From assembly GCA_020347565.1 (NCBI GenBank), contig CP070732.1:1226688-1290687 (forward strand): 64,000 nt of DNA, given 5' to 3'. Positions 35,946-42,985 of this stretch are shown one piece after another. A program made the position numbers and the translations under genes. The notes below the pieces were generated by a model, which did no database searches, was not told the origin of the DNA, and was given only the letters and a program-made list of their open reading frames with translations. Source of the DNA: Methanobacteriota archaeon. Lineage in GTDB: Archaea; Thermoplasmatota; Thermoplasmata; UBA10834. Every line of letters begins with the position of its first letter. Position 1 is the stretch's first letter.

Positions 35946-37661
35946 TCATCTCGCGAGGTGACGTATGTGTACGGCCTCTCCTCTCTGGGCGATTCGCATC
36001 TCCGCGGCGCACATGCGCGCTACACCGACGGCTCGGACATCCTTCCGGTGTCTCACGACGACGTCGTCCCCTATCCGCACGTCGTCCGTCGCGTCCTCCA
36101 CACCGACCGCGAAGAGGTTGCCCTTCGGGGCGAAGTCGTCGATCTCGACGCAGTAGCTGTCGGACCCGCTGATCGCCTCCGCGCCCTCGATCGTCAGCGA
36201 AATCATCCCCCTGGGGTACGACAACGCACCGAGCTGGACTCCGTCCTTCAGGATCCTGACTACCGGCCAACGTCCCTTCGCCTCGACGTCCGCGAAGCCG
36301 ACGGTTCCGCCCTCACCGAACTGGAAGCGCGCGATCGACATGATGTCCTGTCTCGCCCTCTCAGATCCGTCAACCGTGTCCGCATCGACCGCGAGTTCTC
36401 TGAGCGTCTCCTCCAGCTTCGAGAGGCACGGCTTGGAGCCGGGATTCCCGTCCGAGGTGTCCATGCACCCGTTGATGACGGGGTTCACGATGTCCCTCTC
36501 GCTCCCGAGATGGGACACGATGGCGTCGTAGCCTTGGCTGTCGACGAGCCATCGTACCATCTCGGCCACCATGGCACACTCGTCCCTGTCCCAGTGACCG
36601 GTCACAGGGATGTCGTAGTCCTTCGCAGGATAGAACAGCTCCAGCTCCCTCGGCACGAGGCCAAGAGGCGACGTGACGACGACCTCGTGCACGAGGCTCC
36701 TGGCTCCCGAATTGCGCACGGCCTCCCGGAACCGTCTGTGCGAGGGCGAGGCGGAGTAGGGCTTCTTGGCCGAACAGGGGATCAGGAGAAGGATCTTCGC
36801 ATGAGGCGGCCGCTCGTACCTGTCCCTCAGCCTCGAGCGCCACCTCTCGACGTCCGGCCGGTGCAGCGACTCCTTGGAGTTCGCCGAGAAGGGCGCCCCG
36901 CGGACGGGCGCGTGCATCTCCTGAGTCCGGTGATGGTCGAGGTCGAGATGCCGGAGTACTTGTACCTGCCATGATTCGGACCTTATGCGTGCCTCGACGA
37001 GCTCCCTCAGACTCCCCTGCGCTATGTGATGCCTCACGAGTTTCAGCTCCGTCGCCGCCGCGGATGCGTTGTGCTCGAAGAGCGCCTCCTTGCCCTCGAC
37101 GCCTCGGCTGCACGCGGGGCAACTGCAAGGCGGCTCGTCGATACTATCGCGGTGAAGGCCGCCAGTGCTAGTGAGGTACACCCCGCTCTCGGCAGCCATT
37201 ATCAGCGGTATGGAGTCGAAGATGTCCATGCCGCAGTAGGCTAGGAGCGCGAGCCGGTTCGGCAACCCAGCGACGGGACAGAAGGTAGGCCGAAGGAGCG
37301 CCTGTCCCGCTTTGAGGGCGTCGACCGCGTCGGCGAATGCCCTCGAATCGAGCATCAGCTCGGATATGCTGCCGAGTGACGCGATCGGGCCGTTCGGGAC
37401 GGATTCCGCATACGGTGAGCCGCGATATCCAGCCCTCAGGTGCGCGTCGTCGGTGTCGGCCCTCAGGGTGAACGCGGAGGGCGCCACGCTCAGGTCGCCC
37501 TCCTTCGCGAGGCCGGCCTGCCGCAGCTTCAGCCCGTTGTCTGGTGCCGAGTGCTTCCAGGAATCGACGAAGGCGATCGCGGGGGTCGAATGCGTCGTGC
37601 CGTCTATCTCGAGTTCACCAACTCTCGCCAGCCCGTCCCTCTTCGCGATTTCAAATCTCAC
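35946..37661 (-). CDS. arcS: Archaeosine synthase ArcS (TGT-related, with PUA domain)
   Basis: Acts on preQ0 at position 15 of archaeal tRNA on the way to archaeosine. The 571-residue protein has a degenerate TGT-like N-terminal half (GPIASLGSISELMLDSRAFA; FCPVAGLPNRLALLAYCGMD; CSCPACS), then the ArcS-specific LLIPCSAKKPYS near residues 292-303 with the catalytic lysine region, PRELELFYPAKDYDIPVTGH, and a C-terminal PUA domain ending VGVARMCAAEMRIAQRGEAV. TTTTATAG about 26 bp before the ATG at 37661 indicates a leaderless transcript. The partner arcTGT that inserts preQ0 is not in the window. Confidence 0.9.
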   Translation of the reverse strand: MRFEIAKRDGLARVGELEIDGTTHSTPAIAFVDSWKHSAPDNGLKLRQAGLAKEGDLSVAPSAFTLRADTDDAHLRAGYRGSPYAESVPNGPIASLGSISELMLDSRAFADAVDALKAGQALLRPTFCPVAGLPNRLALLAYCGMDIFDSIPLIMAAESGVYLTSTGGLHRDSIDEPPCSCPACSRGVEGKEALFEHNASAAATELKLVRHHIAQGSLRELVEARIRSESWQVQVLRHLDLDHHRTQEMHAPVRGAPFSANSKESLHRPDVERWRSRLRDRYERPPHAKILLLIPCSAKKPYSASPSHRRFREAVRNSGARSLVHEVVVTSPLGLVPRELELFYPAKDYDIPVTGHWDRDECAMVAEMVRWLVDSQGYDAIVSHLGSERDIVNPVINGCMDTSDGNPGSKPCLSKLEETLRELAVDADTVDGSERARQDIMSIARFQFGEGGTVGFADVEAKGRWPVVRILKDGVQLGALSYPRGMISLTIEGAEAISGSDSYCVEIDDFAPKGNLFAVGVEDATDDVRIGDDVVVRHRKDVRAVGVARMCAAEMRIAQRGEAVHIRHLAR

Positions 37662-37729
37662 GATGAGGGATTGCCTGAAGGACTATAAAACTGATTAAGC
37701 GGCGGCAGCGGCATGCCCCGCCCCCGGCA

Positions 37730-38086
37730 TCAGAACGTGGTGACGACATCGTGCTCCGCCGGCATAGTCCTGAGGGCGCTCCTGTCGACGACCTTAAGTC
37801 CCTCAGCCAGTGACGATTCCGAGATCCCTCTCTCAAGCAGATCCTCTCTCACCACGTACACAGGTACGTCGAAGTCGTACAGCTCCACCGTGGCCTCGAC
37901 GTTCGAAGGCATCGACAACGCCTCGGGCCTCTGCTTCGCCAGCGCGTTGAACACCCCGTCCTCCGTCATCATGACGCTCGTCTTCAGGCCGTTGACTGCC
38001 ATCGCGAGCGCGAGCCTCAGGCCTGCGAACGCGTCCTCGAGACCGTACGGGGGCTTGGTCACGATTACCAACATGGAATCAGCCAT
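37730..38086 (-). CDS. DsrE/DsrF-family sulfur relay protein (operon gene 5)
   Basis: A 118-residue small alpha/beta protein of the DsrE superfamily: MLVIVTKPPYGLEDAFAGLR starts the fold, with ALAMAVNGLKTSVMMTEDGV and the YDFDVPVYVVREDLLERGI segment typical of DsrF/TusC-like subunits. The usual active cysteine is absent, which is normal for TusC-like members. Last gene of a five-gene operon headed by tusA; six bases separate it from the gene before it. Likely a structural partner in a hetero-oligomer that passes persulfide sulfur. Confidence 0.78.
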   Translation of the reverse strand: MADSMLVIVTKPPYGLEDAFAGLRLALAMAVNGLKTSVMMTEDGVFNALAKQRPEALSMPSNVEATVELYDFDVPVYVVREDLLERGISESSLAEGLKVVDRSALRTMPAEHDVVTTF

Positions 38087-38092
38087 CGTGTC

Positions 38093-38452
38093 TCACCTCG
38101 CGATCGTCACCAGCCTGTCGGATTCGGACACGAACACGAACAGGTTGTTCGTAAGGCTGCCTATCTTCACGCCCTCGATCTCCTCGCCCCTCTGGAAGCC
38201 TCTTGCCGCGTAGCAGGTCTCGCAGAGCGATATCGTCGCTCCGGCGTCGGCGAGTTCCTGCAGCTCGTCACCCACGTTCGGGAACCGCTTTGGCGCCTGC
38301 CCCTTCTTCACGGCGGTTATCCCCTCCCCGTAGCCGAACATGTTGACCTTGTAGCCCTTTTCGAGGGCCGCCTTGGCGAGCTTAGTCGCGACGTTCGCGT
38401 CCATGGCCATCATCGAGCCCGACCTCCATAGAATAGTCATCGTCTTCGCCAT
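38093..38452 (-). CDS. DsrE-family protein with conserved cysteines (operon gene 4)
   Basis: A 119-residue DsrE-like protein with TMTILWRSGSMMAMDANVAT at the N-terminus, VNMFGYGEGITAVKKGQ, and the conserved cysteine block ISLCETCYAARGF near residues 78-90. In DsrE/TusD the second cysteine of such a motif carries sulfur as persulfide. The ATG at 38452 follows GAGGCGGTG with proper spacing; the GTG at 38458 adds only two residues. Ten bases from the preceding gene, six from the next. Confidence 0.8.
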   Translation of the reverse strand: MAKTMTILWRSGSMMAMDANVATKLAKAALEKGYKVNMFGYGEGITAVKKGQAPKRFPNVGDELQELADAGATISLCETCYAARGFQRGEEIEGVKIGSLTNNLFVFVSESDRLVTIAR

Positions 38453-38462
38453 GCACACCGCC

Positions 38463-38765
38463 TCACGCGCTGACCGTCCTCTCGGTCGCCTCCATTATCG
38501 TGTCGACTATGTCTGCGTACTCCACGGCCCTGCCCACCTTGAGGTCGCTGCTTTCGTAGCCGCGCGCCTCCAGATCGTCGCGGGCCACCTGGACGTCGCC
38601 CGCGACGCGGTCGAGGCCATCCGCCCTGTCCGCGAGGACAGCGTTGTAGACGGCATCCTCGAATAGTATGACGACGGCGTCGGCCCTGTCGGACATGCCG
38701 GCTATGATCCGGCTGGCATCCAGCTCCTGGGGAGATCTGATCACGACGAACGCGGTCTTGACCAT
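38463..38765 (-). CDS. DsrH/TusB-like protein (operon gene 3)
   Basis: A 100-residue protein with the TusB/DsrH pattern: RADAVVILFEDAVYNAVLAD in the middle and GRAVEYADIVDTIMEATERT at the C-terminus. TusB-like subunits sit beside the TusD/DsrE subunit in the sulfur-relay complex. No cysteine is present in the protein, so it would be structural. Eight bases after the dsrE2-like gene, ten before the cysteine-containing DsrE gene; the order suggests a co-assembled complex. Confidence 0.72.
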   Translation of the reverse strand: MVKTAFVVIRSPQELDASRIIAGMSDRADAVVILFEDAVYNAVLADRADGLDRVAGDVQVARDDLEARGYESSDLKVGRAVEYADIVDTIMEATERTVSA

Positions 38766-38773
38766 CCGATCCC

Positions 38774-39178
38774 TCAGCCTATGAACAGGTTGACCTTCGC
38801 GTCGGCGGCGATGTTCAGGAACGCCGACGCGCCGAGGACCTTGACGCCTTCCCGGAGGTCCCTCTCCGAGATGCCCATAAGCGTCATCGAAGTGCTGCAG
38901 GCGTGGAAGTTCACGCCCAGATCCTTGGCCTGCGCCATCATCTCTTCGAAGCCTGGAACCTTTAGCCTCTTCATCTTCCTCTCCATCATCCCGGTGAAAG
39001 GGCGCATGATCCCCTTGAGCTTCGGCCTCACCCCCTTCTTCAGGAGCTTGAGGCCAAAGAACGTGTAGAAGACATGTACCTCCATTCCCATGCTAGCCGC
39101 GGTCGTTCCCATTATGAGGGGCATCATGGCCTTGTCGAAGCTCCCCTCGCTCACGACCATCACCATCTTCTCCGTCAT
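38774..39178 (-). CDS. DsrE2-like protein (operon gene 2)
   Basis: A 134-residue protein of the DsrE2 branch: MVMVVSEGSFDKAMMPLIMG, then MGMEVHVFYTFFGLKLLKKG, a basic segment (MMERKMKRLKVPGFEEMM) and the cysteine motif VNFHACSTSMTLMGISERDL near residue 94. Members of this branch often lie next to TusA and are thought to exchange sulfur with it; some are membrane-attached through the hydrophobic loop. It follows tusA by 47 bases and ends eight bases before the TusB-like gene. Confidence 0.8.
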   Translation of the reverse strand: MTEKMVMVVSEGSFDKAMMPLIMGTTAASMGMEVHVFYTFFGLKLLKKGVRPKLKGIMRPFTGMMERKMKRLKVPGFEEMMAQAKDLGVNFHACSTSMTLMGISERDLREGVKVLGASAFLNIAADAKVNLFIG

Positions 39179-39225
39179 CCTTCATCTCCTCCTTCGAGCT
39201 GTGCACCACGAAGCAGCGTCATGGG

Positions 39226-39453
39226 CTACTTCTTCCGTATGTAGAACCTGAATACGCCCCCATCCTCGTCCATCGCCAGTAGCTCGTTCCCGGTCCGGTT
39301 CGTCCAGGCAGGGACATCGTCTTCGGAACCGACATCGTCGGCGAGAAGTTCCAGTACCTGGCCCGGGCGGAGATCCTTCATCTTCTTCGCGAGCTGCACA
39401 ATCGGCATAGGGCACATGAGGCCCTTGGCGTCGAGGGTCGCATCCTTGTCCAC
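39226..39453 (-). CDS. tusA: TusA/SirA-family sulfur carrier (operon gene 1)
   Basis: A 75-residue sulfur carrier with the TusA signature LDAKGLMCPMPIVQLAKKMK; the cysteine of CPMP carries persulfide sulfur. VLELLADDVGSEDDVPAW matches the second half of the fold. The start is GTG at 39453, three to four bases after AGGAGAGGT. It heads a five-gene operon with four DsrE-superfamily genes. The predicted transcription start near 39484 coincides with a perfect 17-base palindrome, so expression is probably controlled there. The route of sulfur (to tRNA thiolation, Fe-S synthesis or oxidation) cannot be read from the window. Confidence 0.9.
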   Translation of the reverse strand: MDKDATLDAKGLMCPMPIVQLAKKMKDLRPGQVLELLADDVGSEDDVPAWTNRTGNELLAMDEDGGVFRFYIRKK

Positions 39454-39466
39454 AGTACCTCTCCTG

Positions 39467-39522
39467 CGGTATTGTCAATACCGTGCATAGACGATTGTCA
39501 ACGCGAATAATAAACATTGTCA
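39467..39522 (-). promoter_or_regulatory. Promoter-operator region of the tusA-dsrE operon
   Basis: TTTATTATT at 39506-39514 (minus strand) is the TATA element. The perfect palindrome CGGTATTG-T-CAATACCG lies at 39467-39483, directly at and after the predicted start. ATTGTCA occurs at 39471, 39494 and 39516, spaced 23 and 22 bases, about two helical turns. The arrangement around the TATA element fits cooperative repressor binding. Confidence 0.72.
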
Positions 39523-39585
39523 CGTATGGCTGCGACGGCCGGCACTGGCGCGCACGTTCGTCAAAACGGTTAAGTAAAATAATGG

Positions 39586-39597
39586 CAATACCGTGCA
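39586..39597 (+). promoter_or_regulatory. Operator half-site at the HTH regulator promoter
   Basis: CAATACCGTGCA repeats exactly the 12 bases at 39476-39487 in the tusA operator. It sits between the regulator's TATA element (TTAAGTAAAA, 39570-39579) and its ATG at 39600, so the regulator may repress itself. Confidence 0.65.
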
Positions 39598-39599
39598 AT

Positions 39600-39959
39600 A
39601 TGGTCGAGACGCAGAAGATCATCTCGGGTCAGGCCACGTGCAGAGATATCGTGAAGTGCATGTACGGCCTCTCCGACTTCGAGCTGGCCATATACAAGAG
39701 GCTCGTCAAGCACGGGCGCCAGCGTGCGGACGACCTCGCGCCGCTCATGAAGAAGGACCGGAGCACGGTCTACAGGGCGCTCCAGAGACTCGTGGGAGCA
39801 GGCATGGCATTTCGGGAGACTAGGAGCATCGATCGCGGGGGGTATTACCACGTCTACACGGCGATCGGGCCGGAGCAGCTGAGGGATAAGCTGCGCGGGT
39901 GCGCCGATGACTGGTTCGACAACATCAAGGCCGCGATAGACGATTTCGACCTGGTCTGA
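39600..39959 (+). CDS. TrmB/MarR-like HTH transcriptional regulator, candidate regulator of the sulfur operon
   Basis: A 119-residue winged-helix protein. SDFELAIYKRLVKHGRQRAD and DLAPLMKKDRSTVYRALQRL (about residues 25-65) form the helix-turn-helix, followed by the wing GMAFRETRSIDRGGYYHVYT. Cys14 and Cys20 in QATCRDIVKCMYG just before the HTH, and a third cysteine near residue 97, could sense redox state or persulfide. There is no effector domain. The ATG lies about 26 bp from the TATA element, so the message is leaderless. It is divergent from the tusA operon and shares a 12-base sequence with that operon's operator. Confidence 0.85.
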   Translation: MVETQKIISGQATCRDIVKCMYGLSDFELAIYKRLVKHGRQRADDLAPLMKKDRSTVYRALQRLVGAGMAFRETRSIDRGGYYHVYTAIGPEQLRDKLRGCADDWFDNIKAAIDDFDLV

Positions 39960-40024
39960 CATCCCTGACATGTACCGCTCCCGCTCGTGAAAGGCTTATA
40001 TCTTGTCAATCGATTAGGTGGCCG

Positions 40025-40960
40025 ATGTCGGGGAGTTTTAGGGGCTCGGATGTAGTGTCCGTCCGCGACCTTTCCAGGGAGCAGATCGAGCGCGTTCTAA
40101 CGGTCGCGGAGCGGATGGTGCCCATAGCCAGGGGCGAGGAGAAGAGCGACGAGCTGAGCGGCAAGGTCCTGGGATCGCTCTTCTACGAGCCGTCCACAAG
40201 GACGCGCCTGTCGTTCGAGGCTGCCATGACGCGCCTCGGGGGAAGGACCCTCGGCTTCGACGAGCCGAAGGGCGCCTCCGTGGCGAAGGGCGAAACGCTG
40301 GCGGACACGATACGTATGGTCGATGCCTATTCGGATGTGATCGTCCTGCGCCATCCGCAGGAGGGCGCCGCCAGGCTTGCGGGGCACTTCGCGGTGAACC
40401 CGGTCATCAACGCCGGTGACGGCGCGGGGCAGCACCCGACGCAGACGCTCCTGGACCTCTTCACGATAAGGAAGGAGAAGGGCGGCGTCGACGGCAACCA
40501 TGTAGTGATTGTGGGAGACCTGAAGTACGGCCGGACGGTCCACTCGTTGTCAGAGGCGCTCAGCATGTTCGGGGCGAAGTTGACGTTCGTGGCGCCCCCG
40601 ACGCTGCAGATGCCCAGGGAGCAGATCGCGCACATCGAGTCCAAGGGGTTGGAACCGACGATCAGCAGCTCGCTCGAGGAGGTCCTGGCAGACGCCGATG
40701 TGCTCTACATGACAAGGATACAGAAGGAGAGGTTCCCCGATCCTGCCGAGTACCAGAAGGTGGCCGGGGCGTACGCCTTGACCAGGGCGTTGCTGAGGGA
40801 CGCGAAGGACGACATGATAGTCATGCACCCGCTGCCGCGGGTGAACGAGATACATCCCGAGGTAGATGGGACGCCGCACGCGCGGTACTTCGAGCAAGCG
40901 TTCAACGGCGTGCCCGTGAGGATGGCCCTGCTCTCGCTCGTGCTGGGAGGGAGCGAATGA
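40025..40960 (+). CDS. pyrB: Aspartate carbamoyltransferase catalytic subunit
   Basis: Joins carbamoyl phosphate and aspartate in pyrimidine synthesis. At 311 residues it has the usual length. The carbamoyl-phosphate loop EPSTRTRLSFEAAMTRLGG, VIVLRHPQEGAARLAG, NAGDGAGQHPTQTLLDLFTI, IVGDLKYGRTVHSL and MHPLPRVNEIHPEVD are all intact. TTATAT near 39997 is the TATA element and GGTGG precedes the ATG. It overlaps pyrI by four bases. Confidence 0.97.
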   Translation: MSGSFRGSDVVSVRDLSREQIERVLTVAERMVPIARGEEKSDELSGKVLGSLFYEPSTRTRLSFEAAMTRLGGRTLGFDEPKGASVAKGETLADTIRMVDAYSDVIVLRHPQEGAARLAGHFAVNPVINAGDGAGQHPTQTLLDLFTIRKEKGGVDGNHVVIVGDLKYGRTVHSLSEALSMFGAKLTFVAPPTLQMPREQIAHIESKGLEPTISSSLEEVLADADVLYMTRIQKERFPDPAEYQKVAGAYALTRALLRDAKDDMIVMHPLPRVNEIHPEVDGTPHARYFEQAFNGVPVRMALLSLVLGGSE

Positions 40961-41412
40961 AGGAGTTCAAGGTGACGCCGATACGGAACGGCACGGTGAT
41001 AGACCACATCGACGTCGGCATGGCGCTGAAGGTCCTCCGGATCATAGGCGTCAGAGGGGACGTGAGCTCCACCGTGAGCGTGCTGATACATGTGCCGAGC
41101 AAGAAGGGCACCTGGAAGGACATAGTGAAGATAGAGGACCGCGAGCTGGACCCTAAGGAGCTGGACAAGGTCGCGCTCATATCGCCGGATGCGACGATCA
41201 ACATCATACGCGACTACAATGTGGCGGAGAAGTTCGTGGTGGAAGTCCCTGAGAGGGTCAGGGCCATCATGAAGTGCTCGAACCCTGGGTGCATAACGAA
41301 CAAGAACGAGCCGGTCGAGCCCGAGTTCGTCGTCGAGGCCAAGAGACCGCCCGCGCTGAGGTGCGTCTACTGCGACAGGACGACGACGGACATAGCCGAG
41401 AACCTCGTGTGA
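40957..41412 (+). CDS. pyrI: Aspartate carbamoyltransferase regulatory subunit
   Basis: Regulatory chain (151 residues) that binds nucleotide effectors and bridges catalytic trimers. The N-terminal allosteric domain begins FKVTPIRNGTVIDHIDVGMA, and the C-terminal zinc domain has MKCSNPGCITNKNEPVEPEF and LRCVYCDR, giving the four zinc cysteines. Its ATG overlaps the pyrB stop codon region by four bases (ATGA), so the two are translated together in equal amount. Confidence 0.97.
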   Translation: MKEFKVTPIRNGTVIDHIDVGMALKVLRIIGVRGDVSSTVSVLIHVPSKKGTWKDIVKIEDRELDPKELDKVALISPDATINIIRDYNVAEKFVVEVPERVRAIMKCSNPGCITNKNEPVEPEFVVEAKRPPALRCVYCDRTTTDIAENLV

Positions 41413-41436
41413 TCTTTGACAGGGGGCTCTGACAGT

Positions 41437-41772
41437 ATGCGGCTGACCTTCCAACCGTTGGCGTGCATCGCCTGCGACCTGTGCGAGGTCGCGTGCAGCC
41501 TGAGGAGGGACGGCGTGGTCACGCCGATGTCCTCGAGCATAATCCTGCACTCGGAGGACAAGGCTAACTACTTCGGACTAGTCCTCAAGAGCCGCTCGGA
41601 AGGCGTCGTCCTGGTCCGACCGGAGGGCGTCGTGTCGGGCCAGGAATCGTCCGGCGGCTCCGGAGGGCCCGGCGCCAAGCCGATACTGCTGAGGGAGCCC
41701 TGCGACCTCTGCGACGGCGACCCGATGTGCGTGAGAGCGTGCCCCGTGAGATGCATCTCTGTGGAGGACTGA
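41437..41772 (+). CDS. 4Fe-4S ferredoxin-type protein beside an AOR-like gene
   Basis: A 111-residue protein with LACIACDLCEVACSL near the N-terminus and PCDLCDGDPMCVRACPVRCI near the C-terminus, so two 4Fe-4S clusters are likely. Between them is a Gly/Ser-rich loop. This pattern is that of electron-transfer subunits encoded next to aldehyde ferredoxin oxidoreductases. Its stop is two bases before the AOR-like gene, a tight operon. The ATG at 41437 is chosen over 41416 because the first seven residues there are unconserved. Confidence 0.8.
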   Translation: MRLTFQPLACIACDLCEVACSLRRDGVVTPMSSSIILHSEDKANYFGLVLKSRSEGVVLVRPEGVVSGQESSGGSGGPGAKPILLREPCDLCDGDPMCVRACPVRCISVED

Positions 41773-41773
41773 A

Positions 41774-42985
41774 ATGCGGTTCATGAACGGAAGGTACGGC
41801 GTGATCGACCTGGCCTCGGGCGAGTCGTCCGAGCACGAGCTGTCCGAGGACGCGTTCCGCGGGCCTTCATCGTACCTTTCGGCCGTCGGATCGGCAGCGC
41901 GGGAGCACGCTGCCGGCGGCCTCGCGGTCTCGTCCGGCCTGCTGACCTGCAGCCTCACCCCGGCCGCGTGCGCGGGGTTCGTCCTGAGCCCGCGGGAAGG
42001 GCCCGCGGAGGAGAGGATGTGCCCTCTCACAGGCTACATCGGCACCGAGCTGAAGCTGTCGGGATTCGACTTCATCGTCCTTGCGGGAGAGTCGAAGGTG
42101 CCTGGCTACATCTGGATACGGGACGGCATCCTGGAACTCGTTCCCTCACCCGCGATCGTCGGCAGCGACTCCTGGAAGCGCACCGACACGATCCGCAAGG
42201 ACCAGGGAGACAAGAGGATACAGGTCATCTCCGTCGGACCATGGGGCGACTCATGCCTCGCGTCGTCGCAGCTCGTCATGAACTATTGGGGCGGCGAGGA
42301 CGCGATCGGCTGCGCAGCGGACTTCGGTCGCAGGTCCGTGGCCGCGTTTGCCGTCCGCGGCATGGGCGAGATAGAGCTGGAGGAGCCGGAGGAGCACTTC
42401 TCGCGGTCGCTCGAGCTGCGCGAGAGCCACAGAGCCGCGTTGGGCGAGAGCACCGGCCTTTCATCCTTCACAGAGAAGGTCGCGGGCGAGGGGTTCGGGG
42501 CCCTGTTCCATAGAAAGGTTGCGTGCTACGGATGCCCATACCCTTGCAGGAGCTATTACAAGGTGTTCGAGGACGCCGATGTGATGGCTCTCAAGATCGA
42601 CGAGCCGGGCCACCTCGCCTACGATATCCCGGCTATCGATGAGCTGCTCTCCATCGGATTGACGGCCAGAGAAGTTGTCCTGTCACTCATCGCGTGCGCG
42701 AAGGCAGGAGCGGACCCCGTGTCCGTGGCGCGCGCCGTTGGAGACGGCGGACCCCAGCCCTCTGTCGAGGCGATACAGGCGGCGCTGGCCTCCGAGAAGG
42801 CGACGGACGCGCGCGGCAGCGCGGTCGAGGGTGGCTTCACCGACGCGTTCGCGAACGCGTCTGATTACGTCGTGTGCCTCGCTCTAGGGCTCTGTCCGCG
42901 ATACTGGGCTAGGGTCGGCCTGAACTTTGGAGCAATATCTCGCGTCGCTGAGCCCGCCACCGGCTCAGGGATGGAGCTTCGGTGA
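41774..42985 (+). CDS. Short, diverged aldehyde ferredoxin oxidoreductase-like protein
   Basis: A 403-residue AOR-family protein; normal members have about 600 residues. MRFMNGRYGVIDLASGES starts the N-terminal domain. VISVGPWGDSCLASSQLVMN, GGEDAIGCAADFGRRSVAAF and VRGMGEI correspond to the pterin-contact region. The 4Fe-4S motif ACYGCPYPCRSYY is present, and LALGLCPRYW matches the C-terminal cluster cysteine region. Roughly 200 residues of domains 2-3 are missing, without a frameshift in sight. It could be a functional minimal enzyme or a cofactor-less derivative. Coupled to the ferredoxin-like gene. Confidence 0.72.
   Translation: MRFMNGRYGVIDLASGESSEHELSEDAFRGPSSYLSAVGSAAREHAAGGLAVSSGLLTCSLTPAACAGFVLSPREGPAEERMCPLTGYIGTELKLSGFDFIVLAGESKVPGYIWIRDGILELVPSPAIVGSDSWKRTDTIRKDQGDKRIQVISVGPWGDSCLASSQLVMNYWGGEDAIGCAADFGRRSVAAFAVRGMGEIELEEPEEHFSRSLELRESHRAALGESTGLSSFTEKVAGEGFGALFHRKVACYGCPYPCRSYYKVFEDADVMALKIDEPGHLAYDIPAIDELLSIGLTAREVVLSLIACAKAGADPVSVARAVGDGGPQPSVEAIQAALASEKATDARGSAVEGGFTDAFANASDYVVCLALGLCPRYWARVGLNFGAISRVAEPATGSGMELR

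Follow-up and report, generated by a model that had tools for sequence, protein, structure and literature searches.

A conserved pair of operator-like sites between a TusA-DsrE sulfur-relay operon and a divergent gene for an OxsR-type TrmB regulator in Thermoplasmata

Introduction

How is a TusA/DsrE sulfur relay controlled in archaea? The question is raised by a locus in a 64,000-nucleotide stretch of contig CP070732.1 (hereafter the window) from a Methanobacteriota archaeon of the class Thermoplasmata, where a relay operon and the gene of a small winged-helix regulator diverge from an intergenic region of 146 bases, with tusA on the minus and the regulator on the plus strand. No such regulator was found among the papers listed for TusA/DsrE in archaea, for TusA/DsrE of Methanomassiliicoccales or for arCOG02242. 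A preliminary description had listed a palindrome, three copies of ATTGTCA, a repeated 12-mer and the regulator residues Cys14 and Cys20, all of them correct in letters and coordinates, and had interpreted them as belonging to an autoregulated, possibly persulfide- or redox-sensing repressor of the relay. In what follows, that observation is partly confirmed and the interpretation partly supported.

The sulfur-relay locus

The features considered are as follows.

37730..38086, minus strand: TusC/DsrF-like protein (PF02635; TIGR03010 54.2 bits, cut-off 94.15)
38093..38458, minus strand: TusD/DsrE-like protein (PF02635; TIGR03012 only 19 bits, cut-off 89.25)
38463..38765, minus strand: TusB/DsrH-like protein (PF04077; TIGR03011 43.1 bits, below the cut-off of 49.2)
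38774..39178, minus strand: DsrE2-like sulfur carrier (PF13686; NCBIfam DsrE2 83.8 bits, below the cut-off of 210)
39226..39453, minus strand: TusA sulfurtransferase with CPxP motif (PF01206, E 4.8e-25)
39466..39487, no strand: candidate operator 1, ACGGT-N9-ACCGT type (GCGGT here) plus GCA, from the alignment of 16 genomes
39507..39525, minus strand: predicted tusA promoter, TATA-like TTTATTAT (39514-39507) with the conserved ATTnTCACGT (39516-39525) upstream, from the alignment of 16 genomes, by eye
39566..39597, no strand: candidate operator 2, ACGGT-N19-ACCGT plus GCA, from the alignment of 16 genomes
39570..39579, plus strand: predicted TATA region of the regulator gene, TTAAGTAAAA (TTAAGTATAA in most relatives), by eye
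39600..39959, plus strand: regulator of 119 amino acids, single winged-helix TrmB protein (PF01978), OxsR/arCOG02242-like, with Cys14, Cys20 and Cys101

All five relay genes of the window (5/5) reach their Pfam cut-offs and comprise TusA, a TusB-, TusC- and TusD-like set and a DsrE2-like protein; the NCBIfam models of TusA, TusB, TusC, TusD and DsrE2 are the best or near-best matches for them, each below its own cut-off. The TusE/DsrC acceptor (PF04358) had no match in the window's own genome, which is 90% complete. The minus-strand relay genes are followed by the gene of archaeosine synthase ArcS, which scores above its NCBIfam cut-off, and pyrB and pyrI are found downstream of the regulator gene.

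The gene order of ArcS, Dsr/Tus genes and TusA on one side and regulator, PyrB and PyrI on the other (35946-41412) is common to the same-family genomes and the Methanomassiliicoccales loci. It places sulfur-relay and pyrimidine genes next to the gene of a tRNA enzyme for archaeosine. Two proteins are encoded downstream of pyrI, at 41416-42985: one is ferredoxin-like, and the other has the N-terminal domain of aldehyde ferredoxin oxidoreductase (AFOR_N).

The regulator protein

The regulator matched PF01978 with 54.7 bits and no other Pfam family at E up to 0.001, so that no ArsR-family domain, as in the sulfane-sulfur repressors SoxR, sHdrR and SqrR, was present at this threshold, and its scores against the NCBIfam models Sta1 (61.1 bits, cut-off 80) and Lrs14 (45.2 bits, cut-off 90) were below both cut-offs. 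It has a single winged-helix domain and no C-terminal ligand domain, the organisation of the OxsR type. In the structure model of the monomer, helices flank the wing domain, and the closest folds are 3R0A, AbfR2 and ST1889. The protein AOA80_00340, the Thermoplasmata example in the figure of OxsR homologues (PMC9426492), is the same as the regulator of locus L097 at 116/116 aligned residues, and the latter faces a TusA/DsrE cluster. As judged from sequence, the regulator is an OxsR-group single-domain TrmB protein, and PF01978 has nine other matches above the cut-off in its genome.

All aligned proteins of closer relatives (35/35) have both Cys14 and Cys20, which together with Cys101 are encoded within 39641-39900. 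Among 62 relatives, Cys14 is the most constant cysteine (61/62) and Cys20 is kept in 56/62; since the latter is missing in 6/62, it is not the sensor in all of them. A third cysteine, Cys101, lies in the C-terminal helix and is shared by 38/62. Cys20 aligns with the cysteine of 3R0A that has been aligned with Cys24 of OxsR (PMC9426492), where 3R0A chain position 20 is taken as C17 on the assumption of a three-residue tag, and is the N-terminal cysteine equivalent to OxsR Cys24. That residue is needed for OxsR function and forms an intersubunit disulfide (PMC9426492). The OxsR motif CGGnCGnGCG has eight exact matches in the window and none in 39454-39599; not every OxsR site carries it, so the motif is not strictly defining (PMC9426492).

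Two conserved sites in the intergenic region

The 17-base palindrome CGGTATTGTCAATACCG (39467-39483) lies inside candidate operator 1, and the 12-mer CAATACCGTGCA is found at 39476-39487 and again on the regulator side at 39586-39597. When the intergenic regions of 16 same-family genomes with a full-length regulator gene were aligned, the palindrome and the regulator-side copy proved to be conserved in 16/16, all of which keep both genes; their mean pairwise identity was 0.89 each. An even more constant block at 39564-39574 (0.95), absent from the preliminary description, was recognised on the regulator side, and the spacer at 39526-39559 was found to be drifting (0.31). The ATTGTCA copies, located at 39471, 39494 and 39516, had been described as a series with spacings of 22 and 23 bases. 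This series did not hold, as the second copy is exact in 1/16 genomes (identity 0.55) and the third in 4/16 (0.79), and the repeats were rejected as operators. The third copy sits inside ATTnTCACGT beside the tusA TATA box.

In most of the 16 genomes, block one reads RCGGTATTGnCAnTACCGyGCA and block two ACGGTTAAGTATAAAA...CAnTAsCGTGCA. Half-sites of the ACGGT and ACCGT types, single-letter variants allowed, are separated by N9 in block one and by N19 in block two in 16/16 genomes. Ten additional bases correspond to approximately one helical turn, and a regulator acting at both blocks would have to tolerate half-sites placed one turn further apart.

Perfect palindromes with arms of eight and loops of 0-4 bases have 16 entries in the window (several nested), two of them with a loop of 1, and an arm-8 palindrome arose in 27/3000 shuffled copies of the intergenic region; taken alone, the palindrome is weak evidence against chance. 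For ATTGTCA, 3.97 copies are expected in the window and three are present, all of them in this intergenic region. The pair of sites is not due to chance: the 1.97-Mb genome has just two exact copies of CAATACCGTGCA, both at this locus, against approximately 0.24 expected by arithmetic; the duplicated 12-mer is strong evidence. The relaxed palindrome CGGTNNTGNCANNACCG has its sole exact match in the own genome at this locus, and with up to one mismatch it gave 11 matches per strand versus 10 for the reversed control. The 12-mer with up to two mismatches gave 87 versus 61, a weak excess.

Position of the sites relative to the promoters

From the predicted tusA TATA box (39507-39514), read by eye like the other TATA boxes and the transcription starts, transcription would begin near 39484, and block one covers or follows this start. 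Block two runs from the BRE/TATA region of the regulator gene to two bases short of its ATG; the regulator transcript would be leaderless. The effect of OxsR in Haloferax depends on where it binds, with activation from sites upstream of BRE/TATA and repression from those downstream (PMC9426492). Block one would accordingly be a repressing site, and block two, which overlaps the core promoter, would repress by blocking it.

The palindrome also follows the predicted transcription start and precedes the tusA ribosome-binding site, as an RNA leader hairpin might, and the overlap of block two with BRE/TATA could reflect plain core-promoter sequence, but such an origin of the conserved blocks is highly improbable. 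In 10/16 genomes the arms pair incompletely, with 6 or 7 of the 8 pairs left and no restoring changes, and a transcript that starts at the palindrome, as predicted from the TATA box, would lack one arm. A comparison of 39100-39800 with Rfam gave no match at E up to 1, and an RNA element was rejected. Two further observations speak against either origin: in the genome family f2 the regulator keeps its place without the sites, and the promoter of pyrB, which has a TATA box, is free of such a block in the same genomes.

The pyrB gene has its own TATA-like block, GAAAGGCTTATATC at 39989-40002, approximately 27 bases before its ATG, from which a leaderless transcript is expected; the block is recognisable, with variation, in the 16 same-family genomes. 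Control of pyrB by the same operator was rejected, as this promoter is without the site.

Sites follow the regulator across genomes

The strict core of site 1, TATTGNCANTANCGTGCA, was searched in 400 genomes of the class, own genome included, together with a reversed control. It gave 11 matches in 11/400 genomes, all within approximately 130 bases of the regulator, and none in the control; nine are in same-family genomes with TusA and two (G048 and G064) in genomes with thioredoxin instead. Diverged sites, e.g. those of the same-family genomes G008 and G010, escape this pattern. The strict form of site 2, ACGGTTAAGTA-N9-CANTA, gave 16 matches in 16/100 genomes (13 same-family genomes, G034, G044 and G077), all just upstream of the regulator, and again none in the control. 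At the strict patterns searched, the sites occur beside the regulator and nowhere else. In G077, where the regulator is 30% identical, thioredoxin is downstream and tail to tail, which leaves the regulator's own promoter as the one served by the site and favours autoregulation. The presence of sites upstream of regulator homologues even where thioredoxin, not TusA/DsrE, adjoins points to binding by the regulator and, in agreement with the preliminary description, to autoregulation.

Profiles built from the 16 genomes were used to score 54 other regulator promoters, with 717 tiles from the same loci as controls. Ten promoters exceeded every control with block one, 16 with block two and 23 with either, many of the genomes and rows counted here and above being close relatives and the counts not independent events. 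Nine of these 23 are linked to thioredoxin, including 7/7 fetched loci of family f9. The other 31/54 promoters were not above the controls; the haloarchaeal loci L111, L112 and L114 are among them, and they were dismissed as examples of the arrangement, having no TusA match beside the regulator. A search for enriched 7-mers in 29 distant promoters had a best count of 11, versus a largest shuffled value of 10, and is a lead only.

In the f9 loci, thioredoxin is divergent from the regulator across the site GGTATTGCCAATATCGTGCA, which is set between two TATA-like stretches. In one of them (L144:1928-3291), a DUF302 gene lies between the regulator and thioredoxin.

That the sites belong to another transcription factor, with the adjacent TrmB-type protein acting elsewhere, has a low probability. 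About half of the homologous promoters (the 31/54 above) are without a recognisable site, and binding by the regulator is deduced from sequence in a genome with nine further PF01978 matches; yet the strict patterns follow the regulator rather than TusA (11/11 and 16/16 beside it, with different neighbours), and no site accompanies the second TusA (L138) or the two thioredoxins (L162 and L163) of the own genome. Counting against operators of the regulator, no such site was recognised at L024, L157, L158 and L161, where TusA adjoins it.

Neighbouring genes among relatives

Among 100 genomes searched, own genome included, a regulator at E up to 1e-8 was found in 52, with 53 matches. Within fetched pieces of approximately 2 to 4 kb, 24 of these are with TusA, 21 with thioredoxin and eight with neither, two of the last being at or near a contig edge; TusA or thioredoxin thus adjoins 45/53. 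TusA is divergent from the regulator in 20 of the 24, convergent in L024 and co-directional in L157 and L158. In all 16 same-family genomes with a full-length gene (16/16), the regulator is divergent from TusA-DsrE, and three more genomes of the family (G006, G013 and G018) had no match or a fragment at a contig edge. Close relatives with names are metagenome-assembled genomes of Thermoplasmata, Thermoplasmatota or Euryarchaeota.

The divergent TusA/regulator pair with PyrB downstream is found in 12 loci of named records (L094, L096-L105 and L109), 8/12 of which are titled Methanomassiliicoccales or a group within it, and these 12 loci carry a rearranged relative of the site, e.g. CGGTTTTGCACGGTTGTGCAAC. 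TusA is divergent in L107 as well. The stretch between ArcS and the regulator is without TusA-DsrE in family f2, where no candidate site scores above the controls. Of two incomplete genomes, G020 has no TusA match and G019 has distant ones only, elsewhere. In a tree of 62 regulators, the neighbour type is clustered (10 changes, compared with a mean of 27.2 after shuffling); this tree, with few columns and many open forks, was used for neighbour clustering only and gives no order of the partners (thioredoxin or TusA first).

A second, different arrangement is seen in L157, L158 and L161, where distant homologues stand beside a TusA/DsrE cluster; in L157 and L158 the homologue is co-directional with the cluster and downstream of it.

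Proposed mechanism

Given the family and predicted fold of the regulator, the sites with their fixed half-site spacing, their conservation and linkage, and the invariant cysteines, the locus probably encodes an autoregulating OxsR-type TrmB repressor. The regulator would bind both sites as a dimer and repress the TusA-DsrE operon and its own gene, as is suggested by the location of block one at the predicted start and of block two from BRE/TATA to the ATG. Upon oxidation of Cys14 and Cys20, or their uptake of reactive sulfur, the repressor is predicted to release the DNA; reactive sulfur or oxidants would then raise TusA-DsrE, and sulfane sulfur would be carried to acceptors. The proposal of an autoregulated redox regulator is thereby supported in part, since operator-like sites flank the divergent pair and the family has a demonstrated cysteine redox switch (OxsR, PMC9426492).

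Least certain are the direction of the switch, i.e. whether thiol modification releases or tightens the repressor, and the signal, which may be persulfide/polysulfide or general oxidation. Thiol modification is reported to release SurR, MsvR and SoxR and to tighten OxsR. Were the direction that of OxsR, an oxidised, disulfide-linked dimer would bind tighter and shut the relay and its own gene (or switch the relay on). OxsR needs Cys24 for DNA binding, which DTT weakens, and a Methanomassiliicoccales relative of the regulator is listed among the OxsR homologues (PMC9426492), while Cys20 aligns with that very residue; nevertheless, this direction is rather unlikely, as Cys14 is more constant than Cys20 (61 versus 56 of 62), a two-cysteine pair is present here versus one cysteine in OxsR, and the sites are not upstream of TATA, where OxsR activates.

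On the preferred and best reading, an autoregulating thiol-switch repressor, the operator would be older than its partner gene. It is conceivable, though still doubtful, that a dedicated two-cysteine TrmB-type repressor senses persulfide/polysulfide and gates an archaeal TusA-DsrE relay, as the first regulator of such a relay in archaea, with N9 and N19 half-sites serving two promoters, an operator older than its target, and a single regulator-operator module that persisted while thioredoxin and the sulfur relay replaced one another under its control.

One regulator family would tie together thioredoxin and sulfur relay, with implications for the signals to which the cysteines of small TrmB proteins respond beyond the oxygen-rich haloarchaea. 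As a conserved operator adjoins a regulator whose family has a known thiol switch, the matter becomes an ordinary gel-shift question, and the ACGGT/ACCGT sites offer a DNA signature for finding partner genes.

Comparison with known systems

The preliminary description knew of no described regulator of this operon type in this group, which is correct only in part. The regulator family was described in 2022, with AOA80_00340 as its Thermoplasmata example; however, TusA and DsrE each have 0 occurrences in the main text of that paper (PMC9426492), so that the pairing and the operator are seemingly undescribed there. Among the papers listed for OxsR and for thiol-based winged-helix regulators, no further archaeal member of such a kind was found.

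As regards the relay, DsrE3A-DsrE2B-TusA of Metallosphaera cuprina are likewise archaeal DsrE/TusA sulfur carriers; that set is flanked by Hdr-like and dihydrolipoamide dehydrogenase genes, whereas ArcS and, across the regulator, PyrB flank the present one, which includes TusB/C/D-like members, and the abstract on the M. cuprina set names no regulator (PMC4175335). In bacteria, SoxR and sHdrR of Hyphomicrobium denitrificans are sulfane-sulfur-responsive ArsR repressors of sulfur-oxidation genes with tusA/dsrE in the controlled region (PMC10451225; PMC12423496). Their two cysteines are bridged by sulfur; however, they are ArsR proteins with cysteines 50 and 116, in contrast to a TrmB protein with cysteines six apart (PMC10451225).

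The closest counterpart is OxsR of Haloferax volcanii (HVO_2970, TrmB, arCOG02242), which is also a single winged-helix PF01978 protein of approximately 120 residues with an N-terminal cysteine aligned with Cys20 (PMC9426492). Its targets include thioredoxin, which stands beside 21/53 of the relatives here, and in both cases the partners are those of thiol relays (PMC9426492). OxsR differs in being a global regulator with one cysteine and the CG-rich motif CGGnCGnGCG, as opposed to two constant cysteines and a local ACGGT-N9/N19-ACCGT pair, and oxidation improves its DNA binding (PMC9426492), contrary to the release proposed for the present regulator. MM_1094 of Methanosarcina mazei (3R0A) has valine at the position of Cys14 and is reported to form C6-C17 disulfides, and in HVO_1360, a paralogue of OxsR, C15 and C21 are spaced exactly as Cys14 and Cys20 in the present regulator (PMC9426492).
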